A program made the translations under genes and the position numbers. Positions 33,862 to 52,589 of a stretch of DNA of 64,000 nucleotides are shown here, piece after piece. A model generated the notes under the pieces. The model worked only from the letters and a program-made list of their open reading frames with translations. It was not told where the DNA came from and did no database searches. Origin of the DNA: Hydrogenophaga sp. (GTDB lineage: Bacteria; Pseudomonadota; Gammaproteobacteria; Burkholderiales; Burkholderiaceae_C); the NCBI GenBank assembly GCA_030696525.1, contig JAUYSB010000021.1:31166-95165 (forward strand), in the 5' to 3' direction. Position 1 is the first letter of the stretch. Every line of letters starts with the position of its first letter.

Positions 33862-36429
33862 CTAGGGACATGGCGTCTCGGCGGGTGTGCGGGCATGTAC
33901 CCAGGCGCACAGGGCCTCGCCGGGCAGCGGGCGGCTGATCCAGTAGCCCTGGGCCACGTCGCAGCACATGGTAGCCAGTTGATCGAAGTCCGATGCCTGC
34001 TCCACCCCTTCGGCCACCACCTTGAGGCCCAGCGCGTGGGCCATGGCGATGGTGGATGCGACGATGACGCGGTCGCCTGGGCTGTGCGACAGGCCGGCCA
34101 CAAAGGAGCGGTCCAGCTTGAGCTCCTGCACCGGCAGTTGCTGCAGGTAGGCCAGGGACGAATGCCCGGTGCCGAAGTCGTCGATGGACAGCCTGAAACC
34201 CAGGCGCGCGAGCTGGGCCAGCGTGGTCTGTGCCCGGGGCAGGTCGTCCATGACCGCGCTTTCGGTGATTTCGAGCACCAAACGCTGGGCGGCCACCCCG
34301 TGGCGCTGCAGGATGTCGGCGGCACGCTGCGGCAGGCGCAGGTCCATGAGGTCGCGCGACGACAGGTTGACGGCGATCGCGATGTCCAGCCCCTGCTCCA
34401 GCCACAGGCGGCTCTGGCGCGCCGCCTGCTCCAGCACCCAGACGCTGAGCTCGCGCACAAACCCGCTCTGCTCGGCGAACGGCATGAACTCGGCGGGCGA
34501 GAGCAAGCCGCGCTCGGGGTGCTGCCAGCGCACCAGGGCCTCGGCGCTGACCACACACCCGCTCGCCACCTCCAGCTTGGGCTGGTAGAGCAGGCGGAAC
34601 TGGCCTTCGCGCAAGGCGGTCTGCAGCTCCGACATCAGGCTCAGACGCACCGGGCTCTGGGGCGCCAGCGCCGGCACGTAGGCGCACACCTCCAGCCCCA
34701 GCCGCCTGGCCTGCCGCGTGGCCGCCAGGGCAGCCACGACCAGGCCATCGGCGTCATCGGCACCATCGACATCCTGCGGCCAGCAGGCCAGCCCGACGCG
34801 GGCATGCACGTCCACCGCGTGGTCGTCCAGCACCACGGGATCATGAAAACCCTGGGCCAGGCGCTGCGCCCAGCGCGTGGCCAGCGCCCGGTCGCTGCCG
34901 GGCAGCAGGATGCCGAACTCGTCGCCGCCCAGCCGCGCCAGCACATGCGGCGCCTGGCCCAGGGCCTGCTGCAGGCGCAGCGCCACCTCGCACAGGAGGT
35001 CGTCGCCCGAGGCATGGCCCAGCACCTCGTTGACCTGCTTGAAGCGCTGCAGGTTGAGCACCAGCAACGCAAAGCCGGCGCGCGCCGGCGCCGCACGCGC
35101 GATCAGCCCCTGTGCGGCCAGCACCAGGCGCTCGCGGTTGGGCAGGCCGGTGAGCCGGTCTTCAAACGCCATGCGCGTCATGGCCGCCTGCTGGCTGGCC
35201 AGGCTGTGGCGCATGCGCACAAAACTGCGCGACAGGCGGGCCACCTCGGGCGACGCCGAGGCGGTGTCCACCGGCGCATCGAAGCGGCCCTGCTGCAGGG
35301 CTTGCGCGGCCTGGTCCAGCGTGTTGAGCGGGCGGACCACCCGACGCAGCAGCCGCGACGTGGCCGTGGCAAACAGCAGCGCGCCCACCACGCTGAGGCC
35401 GGCCAGCGCCCACCACAGGCGCTGGTAGGGTGCGGCCGCGCTGGCCAGCGAGCGCAGCAGCAGGATCTCGATCTGGCCGCCTTGTGCTGCCAGGCTCAGC
35501 GGGCGCAGCGCGTGCTCGCCGCGCGCGAGCGACACACCAGGCGGCCAGCCGCCGCCCTGCGCTGCGGCGCCCAACAGCAAGGCATCGTGCTGCCGGTCCA
35601 GCGTGGTGGCCACCACCACCGCCGCGGCGCCCTCGTCATCGGCCCGCCGCACCACCACGCCCATGTCCACCGACAGCAGGGTTTTCATGTCGGCCACCAG
35701 CGCCTGGTCGATGGGGGCGCCCAGCAGCAGCCAGCCGGGCTGGGCCGTGGGCACCAGCACAAACTGGAACGGCGCACCGGCCACCACACCCATGCCGCTG
35801 CGTTCGGGCAGGCGCAGCAGGTGCAACGCCACCTGCTCCAGCGCGGCCACCACGGCATCGTCACCGTGCAGCCCCGGCAGGCCCATCTGCGGGTAGGAGG
35901 CGGTTTGCAGCCACAGCATGAACAAGGCGTCCAGCGGCCGGGTGGCGCGCACCCGGCCGCTGGCGTCGAGCACGGCACCCAGGCGCGCACCATGCCGCGC
36001 GTCCACCTGCTCCAGCGCCCCCACCAGGGCGGCGGGGTCATTGGCACGCTGGGCTTGCGCGAAGGCTTCGTCGCTGCCCAGCTGGCGCGCGCCCTCGCGC
36101 AACAGCCGGGTCTGCTCGGCGGCCATGCGCAGCCAGACGCGCTCGGCCGTCTCCAGCTCGTGCTGCACCTGCTGCAGGGCCTGGCGTTCCACGCGCTGCT
36201 CGAAGGTCCACAACACCACCGCCTGCGTGAGCGCCAGCAGACCCAGCACCAGCAACAGCACGCGGGCCGCGAGGCCGCAGCGGCGCCACAGGCGCTGCAC
36301 GCGACGCACACCCAGGCGCGCGCCGCGCACCAAGCGCAAGCTTGCACAGCGCGCCCCGCGCTGGCGCCGCTGGCCTGCGGGCGGGTTGAAGGCATGGGCA
36401 GCGGCGAAGGCAGAGGTCAAGGACGGCAT
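33862..36429 (-). CDS. Membrane GGDEF-EAL bifunctional protein
   Basis: DRLTGLPNRERLVLAAQ...LARLGGDEFGILLPG; EALVRWQHPERGLLSP; DDFGTGHSSLAYLQQLPVQELKLDRSFV; start uncertain (see promoter finding). Confidence 0.92.
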   Translation of the reverse strand: MPSLTSAFAAAHAFNPPAGQRRQRGARCASLRLVRGARLGVRRVQRLWRRCGLAARVLLLVLGLLALTQAVVLWTFEQRVERQALQQVQHELETAERVWLRMAAEQTRLLREGARQLGSDEAFAQAQRANDPAALVGALEQVDARHGARLGAVLDASGRVRATRPLDALFMLWLQTASYPQMGLPGLHGDDAVVAALEQVALHLLRLPERSGMGVVAGAPFQFVLVPTAQPGWLLLGAPIDQALVADMKTLLSVDMGVVVRRADDEGAAAVVVATTLDRQHDALLLGAAAQGGGWPPGVSLARGEHALRPLSLAAQGGQIEILLLRSLASAAAPYQRLWWALAGLSVVGALLFATATSRLLRRVVRPLNTLDQAAQALQQGRFDAPVDTASASPEVARLSRSFVRMRHSLASQQAAMTRMAFEDRLTGLPNRERLVLAAQGLIARAAPARAGFALLVLNLQRFKQVNEVLGHASGDDLLCEVALRLQQALGQAPHVLARLGGDEFGILLPGSDRALATRWAQRLAQGFHDPVVLDDHAVDVHARVGLACWPQDVDGADDADGLVVAALAATRQARRLGLEVCAYVPALAPQSPVRLSLMSELQTALREGQFRLLYQPKLEVASGCVVSAEALVRWQHPERGLLSPAEFMPFAEQSGFVRELSVWVLEQAARQSRLWLEQGLDIAIAVNLSSRDLMDLRLPQRAADILQRHGVAAQRLVLEITESAVMDDLPRAQTTLAQLARLGFRLSIDDFGTGHSSLAYLQQLPVQELKLDRSFVAGLSHSPGDRVIVASTIAMAHALGLKVVAEGVEQASDFDQLATMCCDVAQGYWISRPLPGEALCAWVHARTPAETPCP

Positions 36430-36435
36430 GCACAG

Positions 36436-36462
36436 ACAACGCGTGTGTGGCGCGTTTATTCC
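36436..36462 (-). promoter_or_regulatory. Candidate ECF promoter GGAATAA-N14-CGTTGT upstream of the GGDEF-EAL gene
   Basis: TTATTCC 36456-36462 and ACAACG 36436-36441 on the plus strand; exact motif and spacing shared with 38620, 49105, 50192. Confidence 0.75.
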
Positions 36463-36530: not shown

Positions 36531-37268
36531 ATGCACCTGCCGCCCCGCCGCCAACACCTTGCCGTGGCCGCCCTGAGCACGCTGCTCCTGAGCGCCTGCT
36601 CGGGGCTGCCGCAGCTCAGCGACGACCTGCCCCCGGGTGCCGACAGCCGCACGCCGCCGGCCACGGTACCCGTGGCCCTGGCGCCCGCGCCCAGGCCCAG
36701 CCTGCGACCGGGCGACACGTTTTTTTATGGCCGCAGCACGGTGCTGCGCCTGCTGCGCCAGGACGACCGCGCGCACTGGAGCCGCACCAGCGCGCCCACG
36801 GCTTTTGCCAGCACGGGCGATTTTTTTGCGCCGCCGCTGCGCACCGAAAGCCCCAGCCTGCTCACCGAGTCCACGCTGGAGGGCCGCCCGGCCGACCTCT
36901 GGCCGCTGGCGGCCGGCAAAACGGTGCGCTTCAGCGAGCGCCGGCAGATGACCTGGCCCGCGCTGCGCCTGAGCCGCGCGGCCCGCTTCGACTGGAACTG
37001 CCAGGTGGTCGATGCCCGCATGAGCTATGTGCCGGCCGGCGATTTCGAGACCTTCCACGTGCGCTGCGAAGGCCGCTCCGACAGCCTGCTGTTCCCGACC
37101 GAACGCCTGAGCTGGGACTACGCGCCGCAGATGGGCCACCCCGTGCGCCAGACCTGGTTTGCGGGCGGGCGCGAGCGCGTGGCCACGCTGTCGGCGTCGC
37201 TGCCGGGCGCCCTGGCCAGCGAAGAACGCATTGCCGGCGTGCTGCGCCGGCTGGCGACACAGCGCTGA
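36531..37268 (+). CDS. Putative lipoprotein of unknown function
   Basis: Signal peptide with lipobox LLLSACSG; rest without recognised motif. Confidence 0.75.
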   Translation: MHLPPRRQHLAVAALSTLLLSACSGLPQLSDDLPPGADSRTPPATVPVALAPAPRPSLRPGDTFFYGRSTVLRLLRQDDRAHWSRTSAPTAFASTGDFFAPPLRTESPSLLTESTLEGRPADLWPLAAGKTVRFSERRQMTWPALRLSRAARFDWNCQVVDARMSYVPAGDFETFHVRCEGRSDSLLFPTERLSWDYAPQMGHPVRQTWFAGGRERVATLSASLPGALASEERIAGVLRRLATQR

Positions 37269-37272
37269 GCCT

Positions 37273-38547
37273 TCAGCGGCAGGCCTGCGCCAGCCGGGGC
37301 AGGCCCCAGCCGAACACCGCATCGCGGCCGGGCGCACCCAGGTCTTGCACCAGGCGGCTGGCGCCGCGCTGCCAGTCGTCAGCTCCCAGCAGGCCTTGCT
37401 GCAGGGTTTGCGAGGCCAGCGCCACCACAAAAGGCACGGCAAACGAGGTGCCGCTGCGCGCGCCGGGGCCGTCGGCGGCGGCCAGCCCGGCCAGGCCCAC
37501 GCCGGGCGCCGCGAAATCGATGTGTTCGCCCTGCTGGGCGCGGCGGTAGGGGCGGCCGGCGGCGTCGATGGCGGTGACCGCCAGCACCGGCGACCACGCC
37601 GCCGGGTAGGCCGGTGGCGCGTTGGGCCCGCCGTTGCCGGCCGCGGCCACCACCAGCACACCGCGCCGGTGCGCCTGTTCAATGGCGGCGGCCAGCGCGC
37701 GGTTGGGCGGCCCGGCCAGGCTCATGCCCACCACACGCACGCGCTGCGTGACCAGCCAGTCGAGCGCCTTGATCAGGTCCAGCGCGTCGGCGCTGGTGCT
37801 GCCCGAAGGCAGGCGATGAAAGCTGTTGGCCGCCAGCAACCGCGCGCGCGGCACCAGCCCGGCGCCGGCCTGCGGCGAGGGCGCGGCCACCAGCAGGCCG
37901 GCCACCACGGTGCCGTGGTCGTCGTCCGAGGGCGTGCGGCCGTCGGCCAGAAAACGCATGCGCACGATGTCGGCACCGCGCAGCGCCGGGTGCTCGGCCG
38001 CCACTTCGGTGTCGATGATGCCGATGCGTTGCGCCCGGCCGCAGGCCGCCGCATCGGCCGGCCAGGCCACCTGGGCCCAGCTGCCGCAGTGCGCACCCTG
38101 GCAGGCCGGCGCAGCGGGGGCCTGGGCCAGCGCATAGCGGTGGTGCAGGTCGAAGGTGTCGGGGTGTGCGGGCGCGAGCACGTCCAGCGCGCTGCGGGCG
38201 TCCAGGCCGGCGGGCAGGCGCAGGCGCACCACCCGCAGCGACAAACCGGGCTGCGTCGAACGCTCGACCACGCTCAGGCCCAGGCGGGCGGCGCTGGCCA
38301 GTGCGGCGTTGCTGGGGTTGAGGGCGACCAGCTCGTTGACCGAAAAACTTTCGGCATCGACCGCCAGCGGCACCTCCTCGATCTCGACCTGCTGCGAGCC
38401 ATCGCTGGCGTCGCTGCTGCCGCCATCGTCGCCGTCGTCGGCCCAGACAGGCGTCGCGCACAGGCCGGCCAGCAGCGCCACCAGCACGGGCCAGGCGCGC
38501 CAGCGGGGCAGGTGGGGGGCAGAACACGGGGTCAGCAGGATTCGCAT
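37273..38547 (-). CDS. S8 family serine peptidase (subtilase), secreted
   Basis: IGIIDTEV (Asp), DDHGTVVAGLL (His), SGTSFAVPFVVAL (Ser) catalytic triad; N-terminal signal sequence. Confidence 0.9.
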   Translation of the reverse strand: MRILLTPCSAPHLPRWRAWPVLVALLAGLCATPVWADDGDDGGSSDASDGSQQVEIEEVPLAVDAESFSVNELVALNPSNAALASAARLGLSVVERSTQPGLSLRVVRLRLPAGLDARSALDVLAPAHPDTFDLHHRYALAQAPAAPACQGAHCGSWAQVAWPADAAACGRAQRIGIIDTEVAAEHPALRGADIVRMRFLADGRTPSDDDHGTVVAGLLVAAPSPQAGAGLVPRARLLAANSFHRLPSGSTSADALDLIKALDWLVTQRVRVVGMSLAGPPNRALAAAIEQAHRRGVLVVAAAGNGGPNAPPAYPAAWSPVLAVTAIDAAGRPYRRAQQGEHIDFAAPGVGLAGLAAADGPGARSGTSFAVPFVVALASQTLQQGLLGADDWQRGASRLVQDLGAPGRDAVFGWGLPRLAQACR

Positions 38548-38619: not shown

Positions 38620-38646
38620 GGAATAAGTTGGCGCGCCACGCGTTGT
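38620..38646 (+). promoter_or_regulatory. Candidate ECF promoter GGAATAA-N14-CGTTGT upstream of the sigma factor gene (autoregulation)
   Basis: GGAATAA 38620-38626, CGTTGT 38641-38646; 27 bp upstream of ATG 38673. Confidence 0.75.
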
Positions 38647-38672: not shown

Positions 38673-39161
38673 ATGGACCCACGAGCCGAACTGGTGAGCC
38701 TGCTGCCGCGATTGCGCCGCTTTGCCTACGGGCTGACCGGCGACACGCACACCGCCGACGACCTGGTGCAGGCCGGCTGCGTCAAGGCGCTGGAACGCTG
38801 GCACCAGTGGCAGCCCGGCACCAGCCTGGCGAGCTGGATGTTCCGCATCCTGCAGACCACCTGGCTGGACGAGTACCGCACCCGCCAGCGCCAGAAGACC
38901 GACACCACCGACGAGCTGCCCGAGCTGGTGGGCGAGGACGGCCGCATCGTGGTGGAGCAGCGCAGCGACGCCCGCGCGGTGCGCCGCGCCGTGGCCGAGC
39001 TGCCCGAAGACCAGCGCGCGGTGGTCATGCTGGTGACGGTGGACGGCCTGTCGTACAGGGACGCGGCCGAGGCCCTGGGTGTGCCCATGGGCACGGTGAT
39101 GAGCCGCCTGGCGCGCGCCCGCGCCAAACTGGCCGATGCGCTCGGCCCGAAAGGACACTGA
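38673..39161 (+). CDS. ECF-type RNA polymerase sigma factor
   Basis: RLRRFAYGLTGDTHTADDLVQAGCVKALERW...FRILQTTWLDEYR...LPEDQRAVVMLVTVDGLSYRDAAEALGVPMGTVMSRLARARAKL. Confidence 0.95.
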   Translation: MDPRAELVSLLPRLRRFAYGLTGDTHTADDLVQAGCVKALERWHQWQPGTSLASWMFRILQTTWLDEYRTRQRQKTDTTDELPELVGEDGRIVVEQRSDARAVRRAVAELPEDQRAVVMLVTVDGLSYRDAAEALGVPMGTVMSRLARARAKLADALGPKGH

Positions 39162-39983
39162 ATGCTGATCGACGACACCGTGCTGCTGGCCTACCTCGAT
39201 GGCCAGCTCGACGACGCGCAGTACGCGCCGGTGGAAGACGCGCTGGCCGAAAGCGCGACCCTGCGCGAACGCCTGCAAGCCCTGGTGGACAGCGGCGAGC
39301 GGGTGCAGCGCGCCTTCGACGCCAAGCTGCAGGAGGCCGTGCCCACCCACCTGGTGGAGGCCATCATGCACGCGCCACTGAACCTGGTGCCGCCTGAGCG
39401 CGTGGCCACGTCCGCGCCGCTCAGCCGCCCCCGCCAGCGCGTGGCCCGGGCGTGGGGCAGCCTGTTGGACCACTGGTGGGCCGCGCCCGCCCAGGGCGGC
39501 TGGGGCCGCGCGGCCTTTGCCTCGGTGGCGGTGCTGGCCATGGGCGTGTGGCTGGGCCAATCGCTGCAGGACGGTGCCGGCCCGAGCACCACCACGCTGG
39601 CGCAAGGCCAGGCGGTGCCTGACGCGGCCCTGGCCTCGGTGCTGGAACTGGCGCCCAGCGGGCGCCGCCTGGCCACGCCGCAGGGCCACCTGGAGGTGCT
39701 GGCCACCTTTGAACGCCAGGACGGCGCGCTGTGCCGCGAGTTCGAGCGGCTGCAGGACATGCGGGTGGACGCCGGCATTGCCTGCCGCAGCGGCAGCGCC
39801 AGCGGTGTGCCCTGGCAGGTGGCCATGGTGGCGTCCGAAACCCGGCTGGCCGGTGACCGCTACCAGACCGCCAGCGACGCCCTGCACCAGGCGGTGAACC
39901 GCTACGTGGACGCGCAACTGCCCGGCGCCCCGCTGGACGCCGCGGCCGAGCGCGCGCTGATCGCCCGCGCCTGGACGCGCTGA
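39162..39983 (+). CDS. Anti-sigma factor, single TM
   Basis: LAYLDGQLDDAQYAPVEDALAESATLRERLQALV, TM AAFASVAVLAMGVWLG; immediately downstream of sigma gene. Confidence 0.85.
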   Translation: MLIDDTVLLAYLDGQLDDAQYAPVEDALAESATLRERLQALVDSGERVQRAFDAKLQEAVPTHLVEAIMHAPLNLVPPERVATSAPLSRPRQRVARAWGSLLDHWWAAPAQGGWGRAAFASVAVLAMGVWLGQSLQDGAGPSTTTLAQGQAVPDAALASVLELAPSGRRLATPQGHLEVLATFERQDGALCREFERLQDMRVDAGIACRSGSASGVPWQVAMVASETRLAGDRYQTASDALHQAVNRYVDAQLPGAPLDAAAERALIARAWTR

Positions 39984-43157: not shown

Positions 43158-44612
43158 TTACCCGGACCTTTGGACGGTCGTCGGGCCCTGGACCACGTTG
43201 GCATCATCGCCAATCGCCAGCTTGATGCTCACCGTCAGGCCGCGCCCCTCGGTCCCGGCATCCACCCGCAAATCACCGCCATGTCGCGCGGCCACGGTGC
43301 GTGCGATCGCCAGCCCCAGGCCAGAGCCCTGCACCTTCGCCTGGCGACCCCGGAAGAAGCGCTCGCCCGCTCGTGCCAGTTCGCTGGGCGGCAGACCAGG
43401 GCCGTCGTCGACCACAAAAAAGTGCACATGCGTGCCATCTGTGGCCACCGAAAGCGTCACGTGACAACCGATGCCACCGTGGCGAATGGCGTTGTGCAGC
43501 ACGTTGGACAGCGCCTCATCCAACAAGCCGGACTCGCCACGGAAGGGCAACGTTGCCATAGGCGCATGAAGGCCCAGATCCACGCCGTGCTCGCGGGCAA
43601 CCGGCCACCAGCGACGCACAAGACCCTCGGCCAGGACCACCGCGTCCAGTGCCTCCAGTTCGGGCTCGGTGCTGTCGGCCTTGGCCAGTGACAGCATCTG
43701 GTTGGTCTGGCGAATGGTTTCGTCCAGTTGCTGGCGAATATTCGAAAGCACCTGACGCTGCGCCAACGGGTCGACCTCCCGCTGCGCATAAGCCACCTGC
43801 GTGGCCAGCGTCGTCAGTGGCGTGCGCAACTGGTGCGAGGCGTCGTCCACAAACTGACGACGCGCTTCGGTCTGCTCGCGATTGCGCTGGATGTGGTGGT
43901 TGATGGCACCCACCAGCGGCAGCAACTCAGCGGGGACACCGTCGCTGTCCATCGGTGTGAGATCGTGCGGTGGGCGGGCTTCGACGTCCTGGCGAAGCCG
44001 CGCGAGCGGCCGCATGGCCCATGCGATGGCGAGACCGAACAAGGTACTGGCCACCACCACCAGCATGAAATCGCGGGCCACCGACTGCAGCACCAGGCTG
44101 TGCTGGAAACCAGTGCGGGCTTCCAGCGTCTCAGCCACCTGGATCACCACACGTTGAGGCTCGGCATGTCCAGCCAGCGGGGTGGCCAGTTCACGTGCAT
44201 AACTGCCCACACGCACCAGTTCGCCAAAGTACTCGCCTTCGTGAAACTGCGGTTTGCCAGACAACAAGGGCTGGGCAGGCAATGGCAGGCCAGAGCTGCC
44301 GATTTCGACCAAGCCGTCTTCGGTGGCCACACGGTAGTAAACCTTGCCATTCGCAGTGAGCTCGAAGAACTCCAGCATGCGGTACGGCAACTCCACGCCC
44401 AGCCCACCACTGGCGGTGGAGATGCTGGAGTCGATGGACTTCACCGCACCGAGCAATGAGCGGTCGTATGCGCCGTCGGCCGCTTCGCTGGCGGTGCGCC
44501 AGGCCAGCCAGAGCTCGCCGCCAAACACCAGGAGCATGCCCGGAATCAACACGCTGAGCAGCTTGCGGCGGATGCTGCTCCCCAACCAGCGCGGCAGCCT
44601 CATGGCGGGCAC
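43158..44612 (-). CDS. tctE: Sensor histidine kinase (TctE-like)
   Basis: FVDDASHQLRTPLTTLATQVAYAQRE; HATPase VDDGPGLPPSELARAGERFFRG; adjacent to tctD. Confidence 0.9.
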   Translation of the reverse strand: MPAMRLPRWLGSSIRRKLLSVLIPGMLLVFGGELWLAWRTASEAADGAYDRSLLGAVKSIDSSISTASGGLGVELPYRMLEFFELTANGKVYYRVATEDGLVEIGSSGLPLPAQPLLSGKPQFHEGEYFGELVRVGSYARELATPLAGHAEPQRVVIQVAETLEARTGFQHSLVLQSVARDFMLVVVASTLFGLAIAWAMRPLARLRQDVEARPPHDLTPMDSDGVPAELLPLVGAINHHIQRNREQTEARRQFVDDASHQLRTPLTTLATQVAYAQREVDPLAQRQVLSNIRQQLDETIRQTNQMLSLAKADSTEPELEALDAVVLAEGLVRRWWPVAREHGVDLGLHAPMATLPFRGESGLLDEALSNVLHNAIRHGGIGCHVTLSVATDGTHVHFFVVDDGPGLPPSELARAGERFFRGRQAKVQGSGLGLAIARTVAARHGGDLRVDAGTEGRGLTVSIKLAIGDDANVVQGPTTVQRSG

Positions 44613-45268
44613 TCCAACAGGTAGCCCATGCCGCGCAAGGTCGTGATGCTGACCGGGGCGTTTTCAAGCCGCTTGCGCAGGCGGTGCACCAGAACCTCGA
44701 TGGCTTCGGGGTGCACGTCCTGCTCGTCGGAGAACACCCGCTCCAGCAGTTCGCGCTTGGACATCGCCTCTCCGCTGTGCTGGATCAGCGCACGCAACAC
44801 CGCATGTTCGCGCGGCGTGAGCGTGAGGGGTTCGTGCTGCAGTCGGAACTGTTTGGTGGCACTGTCGTAGCTGAGCGGACCACAGGCAAAGCGCGGGTGT
44901 TCATTGCCTCGCGAGCGGCGTATCAGTGCGATCAGTCGCGCTTCGAGTTCAGTGAGTTCAAACGGCTTGGTCAGAAAATCGTCAGCCCCGCCATGAAGGC
45001 AGCTGACCCGTTCTTTCAGTGAGTCCCTTGCAGTGAGTATCAGGACAGGAAGGGTTTCACCTGCTTCGCGCAGGTCATCCAGAACGTGGTGCCCTTCGAC
45101 GCCTGGCAAACCCAAATCCAGGATGAGTGCGTCATAACGTGTGGACTTGAGACTGCGACGCACCAGTCGTCCATCGTTGACCCAGTCAACCTGGAAATCG
45201 CTTTGCGCCAGTGCCTTTGTGAGCCAGTTGCCCAGCTCCGTTTCGTCTTCGGCGAGAAGCACTCTCAT
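44600..45268 (-). CDS. tctD: OmpR-family response regulator (TctD-like)
   Basis: MRVLLAEDETELGNWLTKALAQ...LDLGLPGVEGHHVLDDLR...winged-helix LTPREHAVLRALIQHSGEAMSKRELLERVF. Confidence 0.92.
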   Translation of the reverse strand: MRVLLAEDETELGNWLTKALAQSDFQVDWVNDGRLVRRSLKSTRYDALILDLGLPGVEGHHVLDDLREAGETLPVLILTARDSLKERVSCLHGGADDFLTKPFELTELEARLIALIRRSRGNEHPRFACGPLSYDSATKQFRLQHEPLTLTPREHAVLRALIQHSGEAMSKRELLERVFSDEQDVHPEAIEVLVHRLRKRLENAPVSITTLRGMGYLLECPP

Positions 45269-45552
45269 ATCAAACCCCATGACCAAAAGTTTCGGGAATA
45301 TAGCCGCGACGTGCGTGAGCGCAAGTGGTGATGTGTAAGGCGCTCACACCGCTGTCTGGCCATCGGCGTAACGAAAGGTGCTGACCGAGGGTATTCCCGA
45401 CAGGTGCGTGAAAGCCGACCGACAGGCTCCGATTTCTACGATCGCGCCCAAGATGGGGATGGCTCGGCACCGAGGACTCCATCGATCGGGGTGTGACCAT
45501 GACCACAGTGGCCACAACCAAACGCTGAATCCGTTCTCATCAGGAACCACAC

Positions 45553-46623
45553 ATGAAAAAAGCTTTGAGGCTGTCGCTTCTGGCCACTGCCACAACCGCA
45601 GCGGTGATCGCCATTGCCGCCTGCGGTGGCGGCGACGACGTTGCAGAAGCAGATGCGCCGACCAATGTTCGAATGACCTGGTTTGGCATCACCAACTGGC
45701 ACTACCAGGTCGGCGACCTGGGCATCATGTTGGACGGTGCAGTGGGTTTCCCAGCCAACGATCCCAATCCCGCGGTGGTGACCCGTGTGCACGACGCGCT
45801 CAAACTCAAGGGCGACGTGGACGTGGTGCTGTTGGGGCATCTGCACGGTGACCACTCGGTGGACACGCCTGAATGGGCCAAACAAACCGGCGCCCAGTAC
45901 TACGGCTCCAAGGCTGCTTGCGAAGAAGCCGTGACCTACGGCATCGCCGCAGACAAATGCTCGCCACTCTATGGCGGCGAAAAAGTGGAACTCAACAAAT
46001 TCGTGACGATGCGCGTCGTCCGCTGGGTGCACAGCATCGGTTGCGATCTGCTTCAAAACGGCGGTGGCATCGAGACCTTCGGCTACCTCTTCACCGCCAA
46101 AACGCCGGACAAGACGCTCACGTGGTACGTGACCGACAGCGGCGCCGGTGGGCGCGACCTGACGATCGATCAGGTCGATGCGGACGGCGTCAACCGGGGT
46201 GCACCGCTGACCAATCTCAGCAAGGCGGTCAGGGATGCAGGCATCAACGGCTTTGAGGTGTGGCAGGGCGGTCCGGAGTCCCGCGTTGTGAACCAGGCCC
46301 GCACCGTGGTGCCGGCCTTCAATGTCAAGTACTTCATGCCACACCACTTCGGGGCCAGAGGCGGGTTCAACATCCTGGGCGGGTTGCACTACCCGTACGT
46401 TGAAGACGAGATGCCCAAGCTGAAACAGCTGTTGATCGACAACAACGTGCCCCAGTTCTACTCGACCAACTTCTTCGATGCGTTTGTCTACGACAAGAAC
46501 GGCATTCGCTCGGTGGACAACGCCGAGGTGAAATTGGCCATGGGGTTGCCCGCTTCAGGCACGGGCCCCACGGTACAAGGTGTCAACCCCCGCGCTGGCC
46601 AGATGGAGTGCGCGAGTGACTGA
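45553..46623 (+). CDS. MBL-fold metallohydrolase lipoprotein
   Basis: Lipobox AIAACGGG; LLGHLHGDHSVDTPEWAK (HxHxDH); MPHHFGARGG. Confidence 0.87.
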   Translation: MKKALRLSLLATATTAAVIAIAACGGGDDVAEADAPTNVRMTWFGITNWHYQVGDLGIMLDGAVGFPANDPNPAVVTRVHDALKLKGDVDVVLLGHLHGDHSVDTPEWAKQTGAQYYGSKAACEEAVTYGIAADKCSPLYGGEKVELNKFVTMRVVRWVHSIGCDLLQNGGGIETFGYLFTAKTPDKTLTWYVTDSGAGGRDLTIDQVDADGVNRGAPLTNLSKAVRDAGINGFEVWQGGPESRVVNQARTVVPAFNVKYFMPHHFGARGGFNILGGLHYPYVEDEMPKLKQLLIDNNVPQFYSTNFFDAFVYDKNGIRSVDNAEVKLAMGLPASGTGPTVQGVNPRAGQMECASD

Positions 46624-47299
46624 TCGTGGCTCGGCCATGATCGAGGTGGTGGGTCTGCGGCACGACTACGGCAATGCGCCGGTGCTGCAGATCGATCACT
46701 GGACCCTCGCCAGAGGGGCGGTGTGCTGCGTCACCGGGCCCTCCGGGAGTGGCAAGACCACTTTCCTGGACATGCTCTGCGCGCTGCGCCGCCCCACGGC
46801 CGGCACGGTGTCCGTTGGGGGCGTCAGCCTGGCCGCGCTTGGCGAGCGGCAAGCTGACCGCTGGCGGGGTCAAACGGTGGGGGTCGTGTCCCAGGTGCCA
46901 CACCTCTTCGAATGGCTGAGTGCCCTTGAAAACGTCGAAATGTCGTCAACGATGGCGCGCGTGCCAGCCAGTCGCGCACGGGCACTGGCTTTGCTCGATC
47001 AACAGGGCATCGTGCATCTCGCAGACCAAAGAGCCGACCGGTTGTCAGTGGGTCAACGCCAACGGGTCGCGGTGGCCCGGGCACTGCTCCTGCAGCCACC
47101 TCTTGTGGTGGCCGACGAGCCGACAGCCAATCTGGACGATTTGGCTTGTGACGACGTTCTGGAAGCGCTGATGAAGGCATCGACCGAAGGTGGCACAACC
47201 ATCGTGCTGTCGTCTCACGACGACCGGGTCAAGCAGCGGATTGATCGTCGCTTGCATCTCACCGCCACAGTTGCCTCTCGGGGCACACGAAGAACATGA
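46616..47299 (+). CDS. ABC transporter ATP-binding protein (MacB/LolD type)
   Basis: GPSGSGKTTFLDMLCAL; LSVGQRQRVAVARALLLQPPLVVADEPTANLD; GTG start. Confidence 0.9.
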   Translation: MTDRGSAMIEVVGLRHDYGNAPVLQIDHWTLARGAVCCVTGPSGSGKTTFLDMLCALRRPTAGTVSVGGVSLAALGERQADRWRGQTVGVVSQVPHLFEWLSALENVEMSSTMARVPASRARALALLDQQGIVHLADQRADRLSVGQRQRVAVARALLLQPPLVVADEPTANLDDLACDDVLEALMKASTEGGTTIVLSSHDDRVKQRIDRRLHLTATVASRGTRRT

Positions 47300-48570
47300 C
47301 ACCGATCCAGCTGCTCCTTCGTCGACTGGCCTACCGCCCGGTCACCACTTGTCTGAACGTGTTGCTGATCACACTGGGTGTTGCCGCCATGACCACGGTG
47401 CTGCTGACGACCGAGCAGGTCGAGCGCGCGTTCGAGCGCAATGCCAGCCCGATCGACTTGATCATCGGCTCCAGGGGCAGCCCTCTTCAGATGGTGCTCG
47501 CGGGGGTGTACCACCTGGAGGCGCCGACACCCCCATTTCCCTTGGAGGCGACGGCATCCGTTGCATCAGATCCGTTGGTAAAAATGAGTGTGCCCATCGC
47601 CCTGGGTGACTCTCACGCCGGATTTCGCATCGTCGGAACCCAGCCCTCGGATTTGGTGGCGCTCTATGGTGGCTCGCTGGCATCCGGCGCGCTGCCGGTG
47701 CAATCGATGGATGCCGTGCTGGGCGCCGAGGTGGCAGACACCTTGAAGGTCGGGGTGGGGGACAGGTTTTTTGGCAACCACGGCCTCGCACAAGAAGGCG
47801 ACGTGCACGGCGACGCCGCCTACCGCATCACAGGCGTTCTGAATCGCGCGGGCTCGGTGATGGACCGCTTGATCGTGACGCCCTTGGACTCTGTCTGGCA
47901 ATCACATGGTCTTGCTGAAGAGCTTGCGGAACATGCACAGGCGGACCCCCATGAGGAGGAGCATGGGCATGACGCGACGGACCATTCAGATCAGGCACAC
48001 GGCGCAGGGGGCAGCCGTGCGGGTGTCACCGGACAGGTCAGTTTCCTGTTGCTGTCCTACAAGTCACCGCTCGCTGCAGCCACCTTGCCTGCAAAGGTCA
48101 AGGCGACCGAGAGCCTCCAGGCCGTCTCACCCGCCAAGGAAACCTCCCGGCTGCTGTCTTTGGTTCAGGTGGGGGCCGACAGCATTCGCGCCGTTGCGCT
48201 TGTCCTGCTGATGTGTGCCGCCTTGTCCATCTGTGCGGGTTTGCTGGGCTCATGGTCCGAGCGCCGCCGTGAGCTGGCTGTCATGCGGTTGCTGGGCGCG
48301 TCTAGGCTGCAAACCGCCCTCACGGTCGCACTCGAAGCGGCATTGAGCGCCATCATCGGCGTGGCTTTGGGACTGTTCACCGCCCATGCCGTGCTCGAAA
48401 GTTTGGGGCGGATGCTGCCTGCGTCAGCGCTCACCCTGACAGGTCAAACCTGGGCGCCTGCAGAGATGTACGTCGCCGGTGCCGCCACCCTCGCCGCAGT
48501 GCTGGGCGCCCTCGTTCCAGCACTGCTTGCCCATCGCACGCCGGTGGCCGATGTTCTCAGATCCGCCTAG
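47296..48570 (+). CDS. FtsX-like ABC transporter permease with His-rich insert
   Basis: LLRRLAYRPVTTCLNVLLITLGVAAMT...; C-term ELAVMRLLGASRLQTALTVALEAALSAIIG; insert AEHAQADPHEEEHGHDATDHSDQAHG. Confidence 0.9.
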   Translation: MTPIQLLLRRLAYRPVTTCLNVLLITLGVAAMTTVLLTTEQVERAFERNASPIDLIIGSRGSPLQMVLAGVYHLEAPTPPFPLEATASVASDPLVKMSVPIALGDSHAGFRIVGTQPSDLVALYGGSLASGALPVQSMDAVLGAEVADTLKVGVGDRFFGNHGLAQEGDVHGDAAYRITGVLNRAGSVMDRLIVTPLDSVWQSHGLAEELAEHAQADPHEEEHGHDATDHSDQAHGAGGSRAGVTGQVSFLLLSYKSPLAAATLPAKVKATESLQAVSPAKETSRLLSLVQVGADSIRAVALVLLMCAALSICAGLLGSWSERRRELAVMRLLGASRLQTALTVALEAALSAIIGVALGLFTAHAVLESLGRMLPASALTLTGQTWAPAEMYVAGAATLAAVLGALVPALLAHRTPVADVLRSA

Positions 48571-48579
48571 GAGGCTTAC

Positions 48580-49044
48580 ATGAATTTGCGCTCGATCTTT
48601 TCCCCTGGCACCTGGTTTCTGGGTGCACTGTTGGGTGTGTCACCGTGCTTGGCATGGTCGCAGGCGAGCAGCCATGGCGCGACCCAGACCATCACCTGGG
48701 AAAGCATGGCCATGGCAAAAAGCAAGCACAAGGACAAAAAATCAGGCGTTGAGTTCCCTGTTGTCTTGTCTGGCTTGAACGGGAAGCAGGTGAAGCTTCG
48801 AGGGTTCATGGTGCCGCTGGAGGCCAAGCCCGCACAAGTTCACTTTTTGCTGACGAGCAAGCCGCAGGATTGCGAGTTCTGCATCGAAGGCGGTCCCTCG
48901 TCGTATGTGGAAGTGAAATCCAGCGTTCCCCTCAAATTCTCGACCCAGCCGCTGAACTTGGTCGGTCGTTTTTTACTGCTCAAGGACGATCCATCCGGGG
49001 TGTACTACCGCCTGGTGGATGCTCGTCCCGCTTCCCAGCCCTGA
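48580..49044 (+). CDS. DUF3299 domain-containing periplasmic protein
   Basis: KQVKLRGFMVPLEAKPAQVHFLLTSKPQDCEFCIEGGPSSYVEV; signal peptide. Confidence 0.82.
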   Translation: MNLRSIFSPGTWFLGALLGVSPCLAWSQASSHGATQTITWESMAMAKSKHKDKKSGVEFPVVLSGLNGKQVKLRGFMVPLEAKPAQVHFLLTSKPQDCEFCIEGGPSSYVEVKSSVPLKFSTQPLNLVGRFLLLKDDPSGVYYRLVDARPASQP

Positions 49045-49104: not shown

Positions 49105-49131
49105 GGAATAAATCCAGCCGCCGCGCGTTGT
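49105..49131 (+). promoter_or_regulatory. Candidate ECF promoter GGAATAA-N14-CGTTGT upstream of CsgG-like lipoprotein
   Basis: GGAATAA 49105-49111, CGTTGT 49126-49131. Confidence 0.75.
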
Positions 49132-49181: not shown

Positions 49182-50198
49182 ATGACATCCCCTTCCCACC
49201 CCACCCCGGCGCGGCCCTGGACCCTGGCCGCTGCCTGCGTCGCCAGCCTCGGCCTGGGCGGCTGCGCCACCCTCGTCAACGACCAGCCCAGCCGCTACCA
49301 GCACCCTGTGGCGCCGGTGATGACCGAACACTCGCAGGCGCTGATGTGCCTGGGCCAGCTGATTGAGCGCAGCGGCCGCTCGGCGCTGACCGTGCTGGTC
49401 GCAGGCGTGCCCGACACCACGGTGCCGCGCAACTTCGAGGACCGGCGCCTGAGCCACGGCGGCCAGTGGCTGCTGCACACCGCCATCCACCGCCTGGGCA
49501 CCGACCGGGTCAGCTCGGTGACCGAAGCCGCCGGCAAGGCCGCGCTGGCGGGCCACCACATCGTGTTGTCGGGCGCATGGACGCAGGACGACGGCGGTGT
49601 GGGCAAGGCCGGTGCCGAAGGCGGCGTGGCACGCAAGACGGCCAGCAGCTTTTTCGATTTCGGCCTGGGCACGCGCCGGCGCGTCGATGTGATCGCGGGC
49701 GATTTCCTGTCCTCTCGCCAGGGCCGCGTGCTGCACGCCAGCGCCATCAGCCTGGCGCTGGGCAACACCGACAGCGGCCTGCGCCTGAAGGTGGAAGACG
49801 GCGCCAACAGCTTCGGCATCGACATGAGCCAGAGCGCCTCGGAAGGCCCGCAGTTCGCGCAGCGCCGCATTGCCGAGGCGGCGGTGCTGGTGCACGTCTC
49901 GCGCGCCTTTGGCGTGGACTACCGCCCCTGTGTGGAAAGCGCCTGGGCCGCACCGGCCACCCACGAGGCCACGGTGCGCGGCTACGCCCAGATGAGCGAG
50001 GCCGAGCGCCACAAGGCGGTGCAGCAGGCGCTGGCCAGCCAGGGCAACAACGACGTGGTGGCCGACGGCGTGTGGGGCGAACGCAGCGCGCGCGCGCTGA
50101 TGCGCTTTCAGGCCCAGCAGGGCCTGCCCGTGACCGGCCGCCACACGGCCGAGGTGTACGCGCATTTGTTGCGACAACGCGCCGCCGGCAAGGAATAA
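49182..50198 (+). CDS. Lipoprotein with CsgG/HfaB-like region and C-terminal peptidoglycan-binding domain
   Basis: Lipobox LGGCAT; RRVDVIAGDFLSSRQGRVLHAS...IAEAAVLVHVSRAFGVDY; C-term VVADGVWGERSARALMRFQAQQGLPVTGRHTAEVYAHL (PG_binding_1-like). Confidence 0.7.
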   Translation: MTSPSHPTPARPWTLAAACVASLGLGGCATLVNDQPSRYQHPVAPVMTEHSQALMCLGQLIERSGRSALTVLVAGVPDTTVPRNFEDRRLSHGGQWLLHTAIHRLGTDRVSSVTEAAGKAALAGHHIVLSGAWTQDDGGVGKAGAEGGVARKTASSFFDFGLGTRRRVDVIAGDFLSSRQGRVLHASAISLALGNTDSGLRLKVEDGANSFGIDMSQSASEGPQFAQRRIAEAAVLVHVSRAFGVDYRPCVESAWAAPATHEATVRGYAQMSEAERHKAVQQALASQGNNDVVADGVWGERSARALMRFQAQQGLPVTGRHTAEVYAHLLRQRAAGKE

Positions 50199-50218
50199 AT
50201 CCGCGCGCCACGCGTTGT
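50192..50218 (+). promoter_or_regulatory. Candidate ECF promoter GGAATAA-N14-CGTTGT upstream of the DUF4956-VTC operon
   Basis: GGAATAA 50192-50198 (its TAA is the stop codon of the preceding gene), CGTTGT 50213-50218. Confidence 0.75.
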
Positions 50219-50276
50219 CCCTGCACCGACCCCACAGATCGGCCCCCTTCACTTTTTTGGATACCCGGAGAACCAC

Positions 50277-50861
50277 ATGAACCTCGAACTGATGTCTTCA
50301 CCGCTGACCGAAGTGCTGCTGCGCTTTGTGCTGGATGTCGCGGCCATGGTGGCCCTGGTGTTCGGCATGTACTACCCGCGCTACCGCGACAAGGAACTGG
50401 TCACCGCGGCCGCGCTGTTCAACATCTTCGCCTTTGCGGTGCTCAGCATCCTCTCGGTGGTGGAGTTCAGCGTGGCGGCGGGCTTCGGCCTGTTCGCCAT
50501 CCTCGCGCTGTTCTCGCTGCGCTCGGAGCAGATCAGCAAGACCGAGATCACCTACTTCTTCGGCAGCATCGCCATCGCGGTCATCTGCTCGGTGCAGGGC
50601 ACGACGCTGGGCTTTGTGGCCACCGTGGTCGCGCTCATCCTGCTGGCCGCCTGGATCATTGACCACCCGCGCATGCTGCACGCCGCCGACGGCGTGAAGA
50701 TCACGCTCGACAAGATCGACGCGCACGCCCTGTCCGACCCCGGCGTGATGCGCGCCGACCTCTCGCAGCGCCTGGGCGTGGAGGTGATGTCCTACCAGAT
50801 CACCGCGCTCGACTACATCAACGACATGGCCCGCATCAACGTCTTCTACCGCAAGCGCTGA
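50277..50861 (+). CDS. DUF4956 domain-containing membrane protein
   Basis: GMYYPRYRDKELVTAAALFNIFAFAVLSIL...GFGLFAILALFSLRSEQISKTEITYFFGSIAIAVI. Confidence 0.88.
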   Translation: MNLELMSSPLTEVLLRFVLDVAAMVALVFGMYYPRYRDKELVTAAALFNIFAFAVLSILSVVEFSVAAGFGLFAILALFSLRSEQISKTEITYFFGSIAIAVICSVQGTTLGFVATVVALILLAAWIIDHPRMLHAADGVKITLDKIDAHALSDPGVMRADLSQRLGVEVMSYQITALDYINDMARINVFYRKR

Positions 50862-50883
50862 ACCCCACCCCAGGAGCACGACC

Positions 50884-51693
50884 ATGACCGATACCCCCCT
50901 CTGCGTCAGCGACAAGAGCGCGCTGTTTGCCGGCTTCGCCCCCGTCTCGCTGGATGCCCTGAACCAGAAGGCCGCCATGCTCGAGCGGCTGGACAACAAG
51001 TACCTGGTGCGCGAATCCGTGCTGCGCGATGCGCTGCCCGAGCTGATGCGCCACTTCGATGTGCTGGAGATCGACGGCAAACGCGCCTTCACCTACGACA
51101 CCTGCTATTTCGACGACGCCGACCACCACAGCTACTTCGACCACCACCAGGGCCGGCGGCGCCGCTGCAAGGTGCGGGTGCGCCGCTACAACGACGCGCA
51201 GCTGTGTTTTGTCGAGGTCAAGCTCAAGGACCGGCGCGGCCAGACCATCAAGAAGCGCATGCCCTACGCACTGGACAAATACGGCACGCTGGACGCCTCG
51301 GCCAACGACCATGTGAACCGCTGCTATCTGGGCCTCTACGGCCAGGCTTTTGAACACCAGCTGCAGCCCGTGATTGAAATGCGCTACCGGCGCATCACCC
51401 TGGTGGCGCGCGAGGGTGGCGAGCGCATGACCATAGACGCGGAGCTGAGTTTCCGCGCCGGCGAACACTGCCGTCATGCGGCCGACGACGTGCTGGTGAT
51501 AGAAACCAAATCGGCCAACGGCAACGGGCTGGCCGACAAGATTTTGCGTGCCCTGCACCAGCACCCCACCAACGGCTGCTCCAAATACTGCGTGGGCATG
51601 GCGGCATTGCAGGCGGTGCAGCGCCACAACAAGTTTCTGCCTGCGCTGCGCAAGCTCGACGTGCTGCCGGCGGGCACACGGAGCACCCCATGA
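50884..51693 (+). CDS. VTC-domain protein (polyphosphate polymerase-like)
   Basis: MLERLDNKYLVRESVL...TCYFDDADHHSYFDHHQGRRRRCKVRVRRYNDAQLCFVEVKLKDRRGQTIKKR...LVIETKSANG. Confidence 0.9.
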   Translation: MTDTPLCVSDKSALFAGFAPVSLDALNQKAAMLERLDNKYLVRESVLRDALPELMRHFDVLEIDGKRAFTYDTCYFDDADHHSYFDHHQGRRRRCKVRVRRYNDAQLCFVEVKLKDRRGQTIKKRMPYALDKYGTLDASANDHVNRCYLGLYGQAFEHQLQPVIEMRYRRITLVAREGGERMTIDAELSFRAGEHCRHAADDVLVIETKSANGNGLADKILRALHQHPTNGCSKYCVGMAALQAVQRHNKFLPALRKLDVLPAGTRSTP

Positions 51694-52589
51694 CGGCACG
51701 CCTGGCACTGGGCGCCCTGCTGCTGGCCGCGTGTGGTGCGTGGGCACAAACCCCCGCCGGCCCCAGCGCGACGTTGCACGGCGCTCAGGCCGACGGCCAC
51801 CGCCTGACCGAGGTCTCGGGCCTGGCCTGGGACACGGCAGCACAGCAGCTGTACGCGGTGTCGGACCGCGGCCTGCTCTACCGGCTGGCACTCACTCGCA
51901 GCAGCGAACAGCCGCTGGCGCTGCAACTGCTGAGCGCGCACCCGCTCAAAGCGCCCGATGGCCGCCGCGTGGACGCCGAAGGCCTGAGCCTGCTGGCGGC
52001 CAGCGAGAGCCCCAGCGGCCAGACCGAGCTGCTGGTGGCCAGCGAAGGCCCGGCACGCGTGCTGCGTTTCAGCACCGACGGCGCGCTGCTGGGCGAATGG
52101 GCGCTGCCCACGGCGCTGGCGGCTTCGCGCGCGCTGCGCCGGGGCAACAGCCAGCTGGAGGCCTTGGCCATGCACCCGCGCCTGGGCCCGCTGGTGGCGG
52201 CCGAAGCGCCGTCGGCAGGTGGCGGCCGGGCCGCGCACGAGGTCCACAGCGCCACCCGCAGCTGGACCTTTGCCGCCGGCAGCGGCCGCCAGGTGCGGCT
52301 CAAGGCCATGGACGTGTTGCCCGACGGCCGCCTGCTGGTGCTCGAGCGCGCGCAAGCCGGCGGTGGCCTGGTCAACCGCCTGCTGGAGGTCGATCTGAGC
52401 GCCTGTGGCGGGACCGCCACCTGCGGTGTGACCGAGCGTGTGGTGCTGGAGGGCGAGGTGGACGCCGCCAACCACGAAGGCATGGCCTGGCTGGGTGAGG
52501 ACGGCGGGCAGACGTGGGTGCTGCTGGTCAGCGACGACCGGGGCGCGCGCCAGACCGGCACACGTTTTCAGCTCATCGCGCTGCCCTGA
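51690..52589 (+). CDS. Esterase-like activity of phytase family protein
   Basis: EVSGLAWDTAAQQLYAVSDRGLLYRL...VDAEGLSLLA...EGPARVLRFSTDG...NHEGMAWLGEDGGQTWVLLVSDD; signal peptide. Confidence 0.82.
   Translation: MTARLALGALLLAACGAWAQTPAGPSATLHGAQADGHRLTEVSGLAWDTAAQQLYAVSDRGLLYRLALTRSSEQPLALQLLSAHPLKAPDGRRVDAEGLSLLAASESPSGQTELLVASEGPARVLRFSTDGALLGEWALPTALAASRALRRGNSQLEALAMHPRLGPLVAAEAPSAGGGRAAHEVHSATRSWTFAAGSGRQVRLKAMDVLPDGRLLVLERAQAGGGLVNRLLEVDLSACGGTATCGVTERVVLEGEVDAANHEGMAWLGEDGGQTWVLLVSDDRGARQTGTRFQLIALP

Follow-up and report, generated by a model that had tools for sequence, protein, structure and literature searches.

In yeast, the VTC complex combines a polyphosphate (polyP) polymerase, Vtc4, with a membrane channel formed by Vtc1 and Vtc3. 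Bacterial proteins with a VTC domain carry the annotation polyphosphate polymerase, and to our knowledge DUF4956, the family that accompanies them in the loci described here, has no known function. VTC and DUF4956 genes also form sets with CotH, beside the pel operons of Gram-positive bacteria (PMC7112168) and in Deinococcus. The sigma factor RpoE6 (EcfR6) of Sinorhizobium meliloti belongs to extracytoplasmic function (ECF) group ECF26, in which a divergently encoded serine protease (SMa0142 in S. meliloti) is widely conserved and whose promoters have a GGAATA -35 element and a -10 element containing GT (PMC6180224). Here we describe a 64,000-nucleotide stretch of a Hydrogenophaga sp. assembly (GCA_030696525.1, contig JAUYSB010000021.1, positions 31,166 to 95,165; hereafter the window) in which genes for a lipoprotein (LP), a DUF4956 protein, a VTC-domain protein and a phytase-like protein lie downstream of an RpoE6-like sigma factor gene and carry the same promoter motif. 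On balance, we favour reading this locus as the output arm of an envelope-stress regulon of ECF26 type (RpoE6-like), which turns on an inner-membrane VTC-type polyphosphate polymerase. The parts are known and their combination is new.

Open reading frame and Pfam analysis confirmed all four genes where an earlier note on this DNA had placed them (Table 1). The DUF4956 protein matched PF16316 (3.5e-48), the VTC protein PF09359 (4.9e-35, 121.6 bits versus a cut-off of 23) and the phytase-like protein PF13449 (2.8e-33). A sequence search of the PDB gave no significant match for the phytase-like family. The VTC and phytase-like reading frames overlap by 4 nt (ATGA). LP has a lipobox (LGGC, residues 25-28) and, as the earlier note had proposed, a peptidoglycan-binding region (PG_binding_1, 1.5e-10, residues 278-329). 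The N-terminus of the phytase-like protein is signal-like, and hydrophobic segments are absent from the VTC protein and several in the DUF4956 protein. An envelope location fits the five transmembrane (TM) helices of DUF4956, the secreted phytase-like protein and the lipoprotein.

Table 1. Module genes, promoter motifs and regulatory genes, in positions of the window.
Feature	Coordinates	Strand	Description
LP lipoprotein	49182..50198	+	N-terminal domain in no Pfam family (weak PelC-like fold match); C-terminal PG_binding_1
DUF4956 protein	50277..50861	+	5 predicted TM helices and C-terminal alpha/beta domain; obligate VTC partner
VTC-domain (triphosphate tunnel) protein	50884..51693	+	Probable polyphosphate polymerase, as predicted from sequence
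Secreted phytase-like protein	51690..52589	+	PF13449; conserved acidic residues and conserved cysteine pair
ECF promoter motif of LP	49105..49131	+	Perfect copy
ECF promoter motif of DUF4956-VTC-phytase-like	50192..50218	+	Perfect copy; GGAATAA includes the LP stop codon
ECF promoter motif of sigma/anti-sigma operon	38620..38646	+	Perfect copy
ECF promoter motif before GGDEF/EAL gene	36436..36462	-	Perfect copy, the fourth
ECF sigma factor, RpoE6/ECF26-like	38673..39161	+	About 10 kb upstream of the VTC module
Anti-sigma factor	39162..39983	+	One TM segment, residues 117-136
Secreted S8 (subtilase) protease	37273..38547	-	Divergent from the sigma gene
HAMP-GGDEF-EAL protein	33862..36429	-	Candidate fourth target; start codon uncertain

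A search of the 4 Mb assembly for the motif GGAATAA-N14-CGTTGT gave exactly four sites, all of them within the window. Allowing one mismatch added a single site outside it, and 0.3 copies are expected in a shuffled window even at two mismatches. As the assembly is about 80% complete, further copies may be missing. A scan of GTDB representatives yielded 65 related loci in beta- and alphaproteobacteria; these share ancestry, so that counts over them are not counts of independent events, and their gene calls are mechanical. A relaxed form of the motif had 40 matches in 0.95 Mb of these loci; a scrambled control gave none and Markov simulations 0-2. The matches precede LP, DUF4956, S8 protease, sigma and anti-sigma genes in both classes, and a few precede response-regulator genes (cluster c4), which may be chance or cross-talk. 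The exact motif, with a spacer of 12-14, was present in ten copies in 6 of the 12 genomes reached via related loci, before sigma, LP or DUF4956 genes. It was not found in the tested family genomes that lack LP or in a same-genus genome that lacks VTC, and two LP genomes outside this pattern carry the motif with a spacer of 15. The dedicated ECF-type promoter proposed in the earlier note thus proved to be stronger than claimed: it stands before LP as well as before DUF4956, its perfect copies number four in the whole genome, and its control extends to a conserved regulon.

The sigma factor, anti-sigma factor and S8 protease of the window are 48% (over 156 aa), 29% and 38% identical, respectively, to the S. 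meliloti pSymA proteins. Their arrangement is also of the RpoE6 type, with the protease gene divergent from the sigma gene, which is followed by an anti-sigma factor with one TM segment and a periplasmic C-terminus. All four copies of the motif agree with the ECF26 promoter, and the motif recovers the mapped RpoE6 promoters listed in PMC6180224. The assignment to ECF26 is based on the motif, the gene context and sequence identity. The regulon of sigma factor, promoter and targets is well supported and looks conserved from beta- to alphaproteobacteria. The window sigma factor is probably the switch of these genes and would act by binding the four promoters. An annotated Nitratireductor plasmid has, as consecutive genes, a divergent S8 peptidase, sigma factor, anti-sigma factor, MsrB, MsrA, DUF4956, a polyphosphate polymerase domain protein, an inorganic phosphate transporter and a phytase-family esterase. 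The role of RpoE6 in S. meliloti was left undefined and polyphosphate is unmentioned in that study (PMC6180224); our results suggest an output for RpoE6-type ECF26 sigma factors. A regulon defined by its sigma factor, promoter, partner genes and unlinked targets with the same promoter also provides a handle to turn the system on, allowing one to ask what is made, where, and why it is needed in cells that have PPK1.

DUF4956 precedes VTC in all 65 related loci and the phytase-like gene is present in 36 of them. Conservation of the neighbourhood, including the claim that DUF4956 commonly neighbours bacterial VTC genes, is therefore borne out, and the gene combination is not the unusual one that the earlier note took it to be. 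PHO4 phosphate permeases were found in 12 loci and phosphate-selective porins in 6 (together 17/65), with several of these genes located between the VTC and phytase-like genes on the same strand. The genome context is one of phosphate. Within the family VTC is sparse, occurring in 6 of 201 genomes, a count that includes the window's own genome and one marginal CYTH-like match. In Thauera phenolivorans, VTC and phytase-like sequences share a single open frame and are joined by a hydrophobic segment (L031:8001-9806), possibly a natural fusion, and in Roseovarius tolerans a stop interrupts the VTC frame (L063:7971-8750).

The VTC tunnel motifs quoted as intact in the earlier note were all found in the VTC sequence. 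A profile built on bacterial VTC proteins, including distant ones, matched the yeast Vtc4 structure 3g3q at 2e-9, whereas an earlier profile without the distant members matched nothing in the PDB. We aligned the profile with 3g3q and 8i6v_E, counting Vtc4 residues along the full-length chain 8i6v_E. Residues R35, K39, R98, R100, R170, E207, K209 and K234 of the window protein correspond to R196, K200, R264, R266, R361, E426, K428 and K458 of Vtc4; K113 was equated with K281 by the common FVExK motif only, as the profile alignment is shifted at that place. With this proviso for K281, the whole active-site set of Vtc4 is matched. In the yeast complex, the triple change R264A/R266A/E426N abolishes activity (PMC9911596). 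The VTC protein is thus a probable polyphosphate polymerase, judging from these correspondences. The literature searches made here returned no paper that tests a bacterial VTC protein.

We consider it unlikely, though worth weighing carefully, that the VTC-domain protein is instead a triphosphate-tunnel hydrolase or nucleotide sensor (CYTH-like), with a module that recycles phosphate under stress and makes no polyP. Among triphosphate-tunnel proteins there are tripolyphosphatases, cyclases and RNA triphosphatases (PMC4641920), and the co-occurrence of the module with phosphate import and a phytase-like protein would suit such a role. However, AtTTM3 is a tripolyphosphatase with acidic-patch residues, and R35 and K209 of the window protein occupy such positions (PMC4641920), so that the equivalents of its E2 and E171 are basic. 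The acidic-patch comparison covers R35 and K209, which are basic, and D37, which is still acidic; no position was assigned to the equivalent of Glu-90. The catalytic lysine K458 of Vtc4 is kept as K234, and the constant pairing with an integral membrane protein also speaks against a hydrolase or sensor. The retained Vtc4 active-site residues, together with the basic R35 and K209, favour the polymerase reading, though they do not prove it. The polymerase part of the earlier proposal, which concerned a polyP-like or other phosphoryl polymer at the envelope, is strengthened to this extent, with polyP as the putative product and export as a possibility.

In the model of the DUF4956 protein (predicted local distance difference test score, pLDDT, 81), five TM helices are joined to a C-terminal alpha/beta domain. 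Among the 35 sequences compared, R35, R37, K39, R82 and K88 are invariant or nearly so, and lie in or beside loops on the side of the C-terminal domain. The side shared by the domain and these basic residues is thus probably cytosolic. Passage of polyP across the yeast vacuolar membrane requires basic residues of the TM1 helices (PMC9911596). Any role of DUF4956 in polyP translocation is suggested by this analogy, which is not a demonstration. Like the yeast complex, the window module combines the catalytic domain with an invariable membrane partner that bears conserved basic residues, which would fit a coupling of synthesis to translocation. In contrast to the yeast complex, it lacks SPX, has a separate five-TM DUF4956 protein, and would work at a bacterial inner membrane under an ECF promoter. 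Literature searches for DUF4956 jointly with VTC retrieved no joint paper under those words.

A second alternative, which we regard as improbable, is that VTC-DUF4956, instead of producing free polyP, modifies a surface polymer or protein by making or transferring a phosphoryl group, with the phytase-like protein in the place of CotH and LP as a PelC-like polymer guide. In streptococci, clostridia and bifidobacteria, pel clusters are directly adjoined by genes for CotH, a poly-phosphate polymerase and DUF4956 (PMC7112168), and Deinococcus has a CotH-VTC-DUF4956 operon. PelC, of which twelve lipoproteins form a ring sitting on PelB in Pel export (PMC12141448), is the best fold match of LP (5t11_C and 5t11_D, probability 0.92 and 0.89, TM-score 0.5 by target), and merits attention given the VTC and DUF4956 genes that occur with Gram-positive pel operons (PMC7112168). 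This weak, model-based match is a lead only: single-sequence and profile searches of the PDB gave no convincing relative of LP, LP has no detectable sequence similarity to PelC and has an extra C-terminal peptidoglycan-binding domain, and no pel genes were seen nearby. Although the VTC-DUF4956 core is common to the CotH sets and the window, the latter has no pel operon and adds a lipoprotein and an ECF promoter, and its relatives add phosphate transport genes. No polysaccharide synthase genes were seen in the window module and none were recognised among the identified recurrent clusters of related loci.

The earlier note had described LP as CsgG-like and suggested a structural comparison with CsgG/HfaB. 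This likeness is not supported at sequence level, as none of 8 LP homologues has a CsgG Pfam match even at E<=10, and CsgG is not among the 50 listed PDB fold matches of the low-confidence LP model. We also looked for LP as a class-wide protein, and in 368 other genomes of the class essentially only the peptidoglycan-binding region matched. LP was found in 8 of 8 tested genomes of the LP group; apart from the window, only two Thauera loci were seen to have the peptidoglycan-binding tail. It is very improbable that the cluster is fortuitous, with LP and the phytase-like gene unrelated to the DUF4956-VTC pair beside them: although the LP N-terminal domain occurs in only 7 of the 65 related loci and was not found as such in the 368 genomes, LP still carries the promoter motif in two genomes where it is not linked to VTC (in Thauera phenolivorans and a Hydrogenophaga metagenome-assembled genome; G793 and G797), the phytase-like gene recurs and overlaps VTC as described, and the promoter common to LP and DUF4956-VTC-phytase largely refutes a chance association.

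Under the regulon reading, a periplasmic signal would free the ECF sigma factor from its single-TM anti-sigma factor, with the secreted S8 protease possibly taking part in sensing or clean-up. The sigma factor would then transcribe its own operon, LP and DUF4956-VTC-phytase. The cytosolic VTC protein, docked on DUF4956, would polymerise the gamma-phosphate of ATP into polyP, and DUF4956, with its conserved basic residues on the predicted cytosolic face, may guide or thread the chain, by analogy with yeast Vtc4 and its TM1 channel. The periplasmic phytase-like protein might hydrolyse phosphoesters or process the product, PHO4 permeases and phosphate porins could supply phosphate in some relatives, and LP may guide or anchor the polymer. 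Most likely, the module functions in the synthesis of polyP under stress, in a process that is coupled to the inner membrane and accompanied by periplasmic phosphate processing. A bolder version, which we hold only tentatively and think doubtful, likens VTC-DUF4956 to the eukaryotic VTC machine: polyP would be exported across the inner membrane as this bacterial counterpart makes it, and LP would continue the path to the outer membrane, the whole being an ECF26-deployed, inducible surface or periplasmic polyP system apart from PPK.

Several observations weigh against the regulon-driven polymerase. On plasmids of S. meliloti and Agrobacterium the sigma/S8 unit has no VTC gene in its vicinity, and on pSymA neither VTC nor DUF4956 lies beside rpoE6, whereas both are predicted direct targets in the window; VTC is therefore a target recruited in a subset of genomes, not a universal output. 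The motif lies within 200 bp of DUF4956 in only 24 of 64 loci, and other clades use other regulators. As for the product, polyP is predicted from sequence comparison, and D37, the equivalent of AtTTM3 E4, is still acidic, so that one acidic residue of the phosphatase patch is kept. Because the genome has a PPK1 gene as well, VTC would not be required for polyP synthesis alone; for the same reason the module would be a second, inducible polyP route, probably one working at the membrane. The DUF4956 fold had no PDB match, and the LP model is poor (pLDDT 54), the PelC match obtained from it having an E-value of 0.07.

Because the fourth motif copy and the assumed start codon of the GGDEF/EAL gene are no more than a few bases apart, the start of that gene is uncertain. 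An EAL gene is also located near rpoE6 and the S8 protease gene on S. meliloti pSymA, and a cyclic-di-GMP output of the regulon is possible. For the S8 protein, a link to anti-phage defence was considered and set aside, as only generic subtilase models matched. A putative lipoprotein gene (36532-37268, + strand) is probably part of the regulon neighbourhood, because a 50% identical relative adjoins LP and an S8 protease in Thauera phenolivorans (L132). Two loci (L114, L115) have an alpha/beta-hydrolase-like gene divergent from the sigma gene, each with its own motif copy. Between the sigma block and the VTC block, positions 44000-48600 have a lower G+C content (0.61-0.63) and encode a two-component system, a metallo-beta-lactamase-fold protein and an ABC/FtsX pair; this segment is possibly inserted. 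VTC modules at L008, L009, L010, L036, L042, L051, L055, L057 and L058 lie beside a different ECF sigma factor and/or a TPR-CHAT protein and an S8 subtilase, and thus represent a second regulatory wiring of the same VTC core. The module has a different ECF sigma factor, a TPR-CHAT protein and an S8 protease as its neighbours in loci of Rubrivivax, Methylibium and Ideonella.

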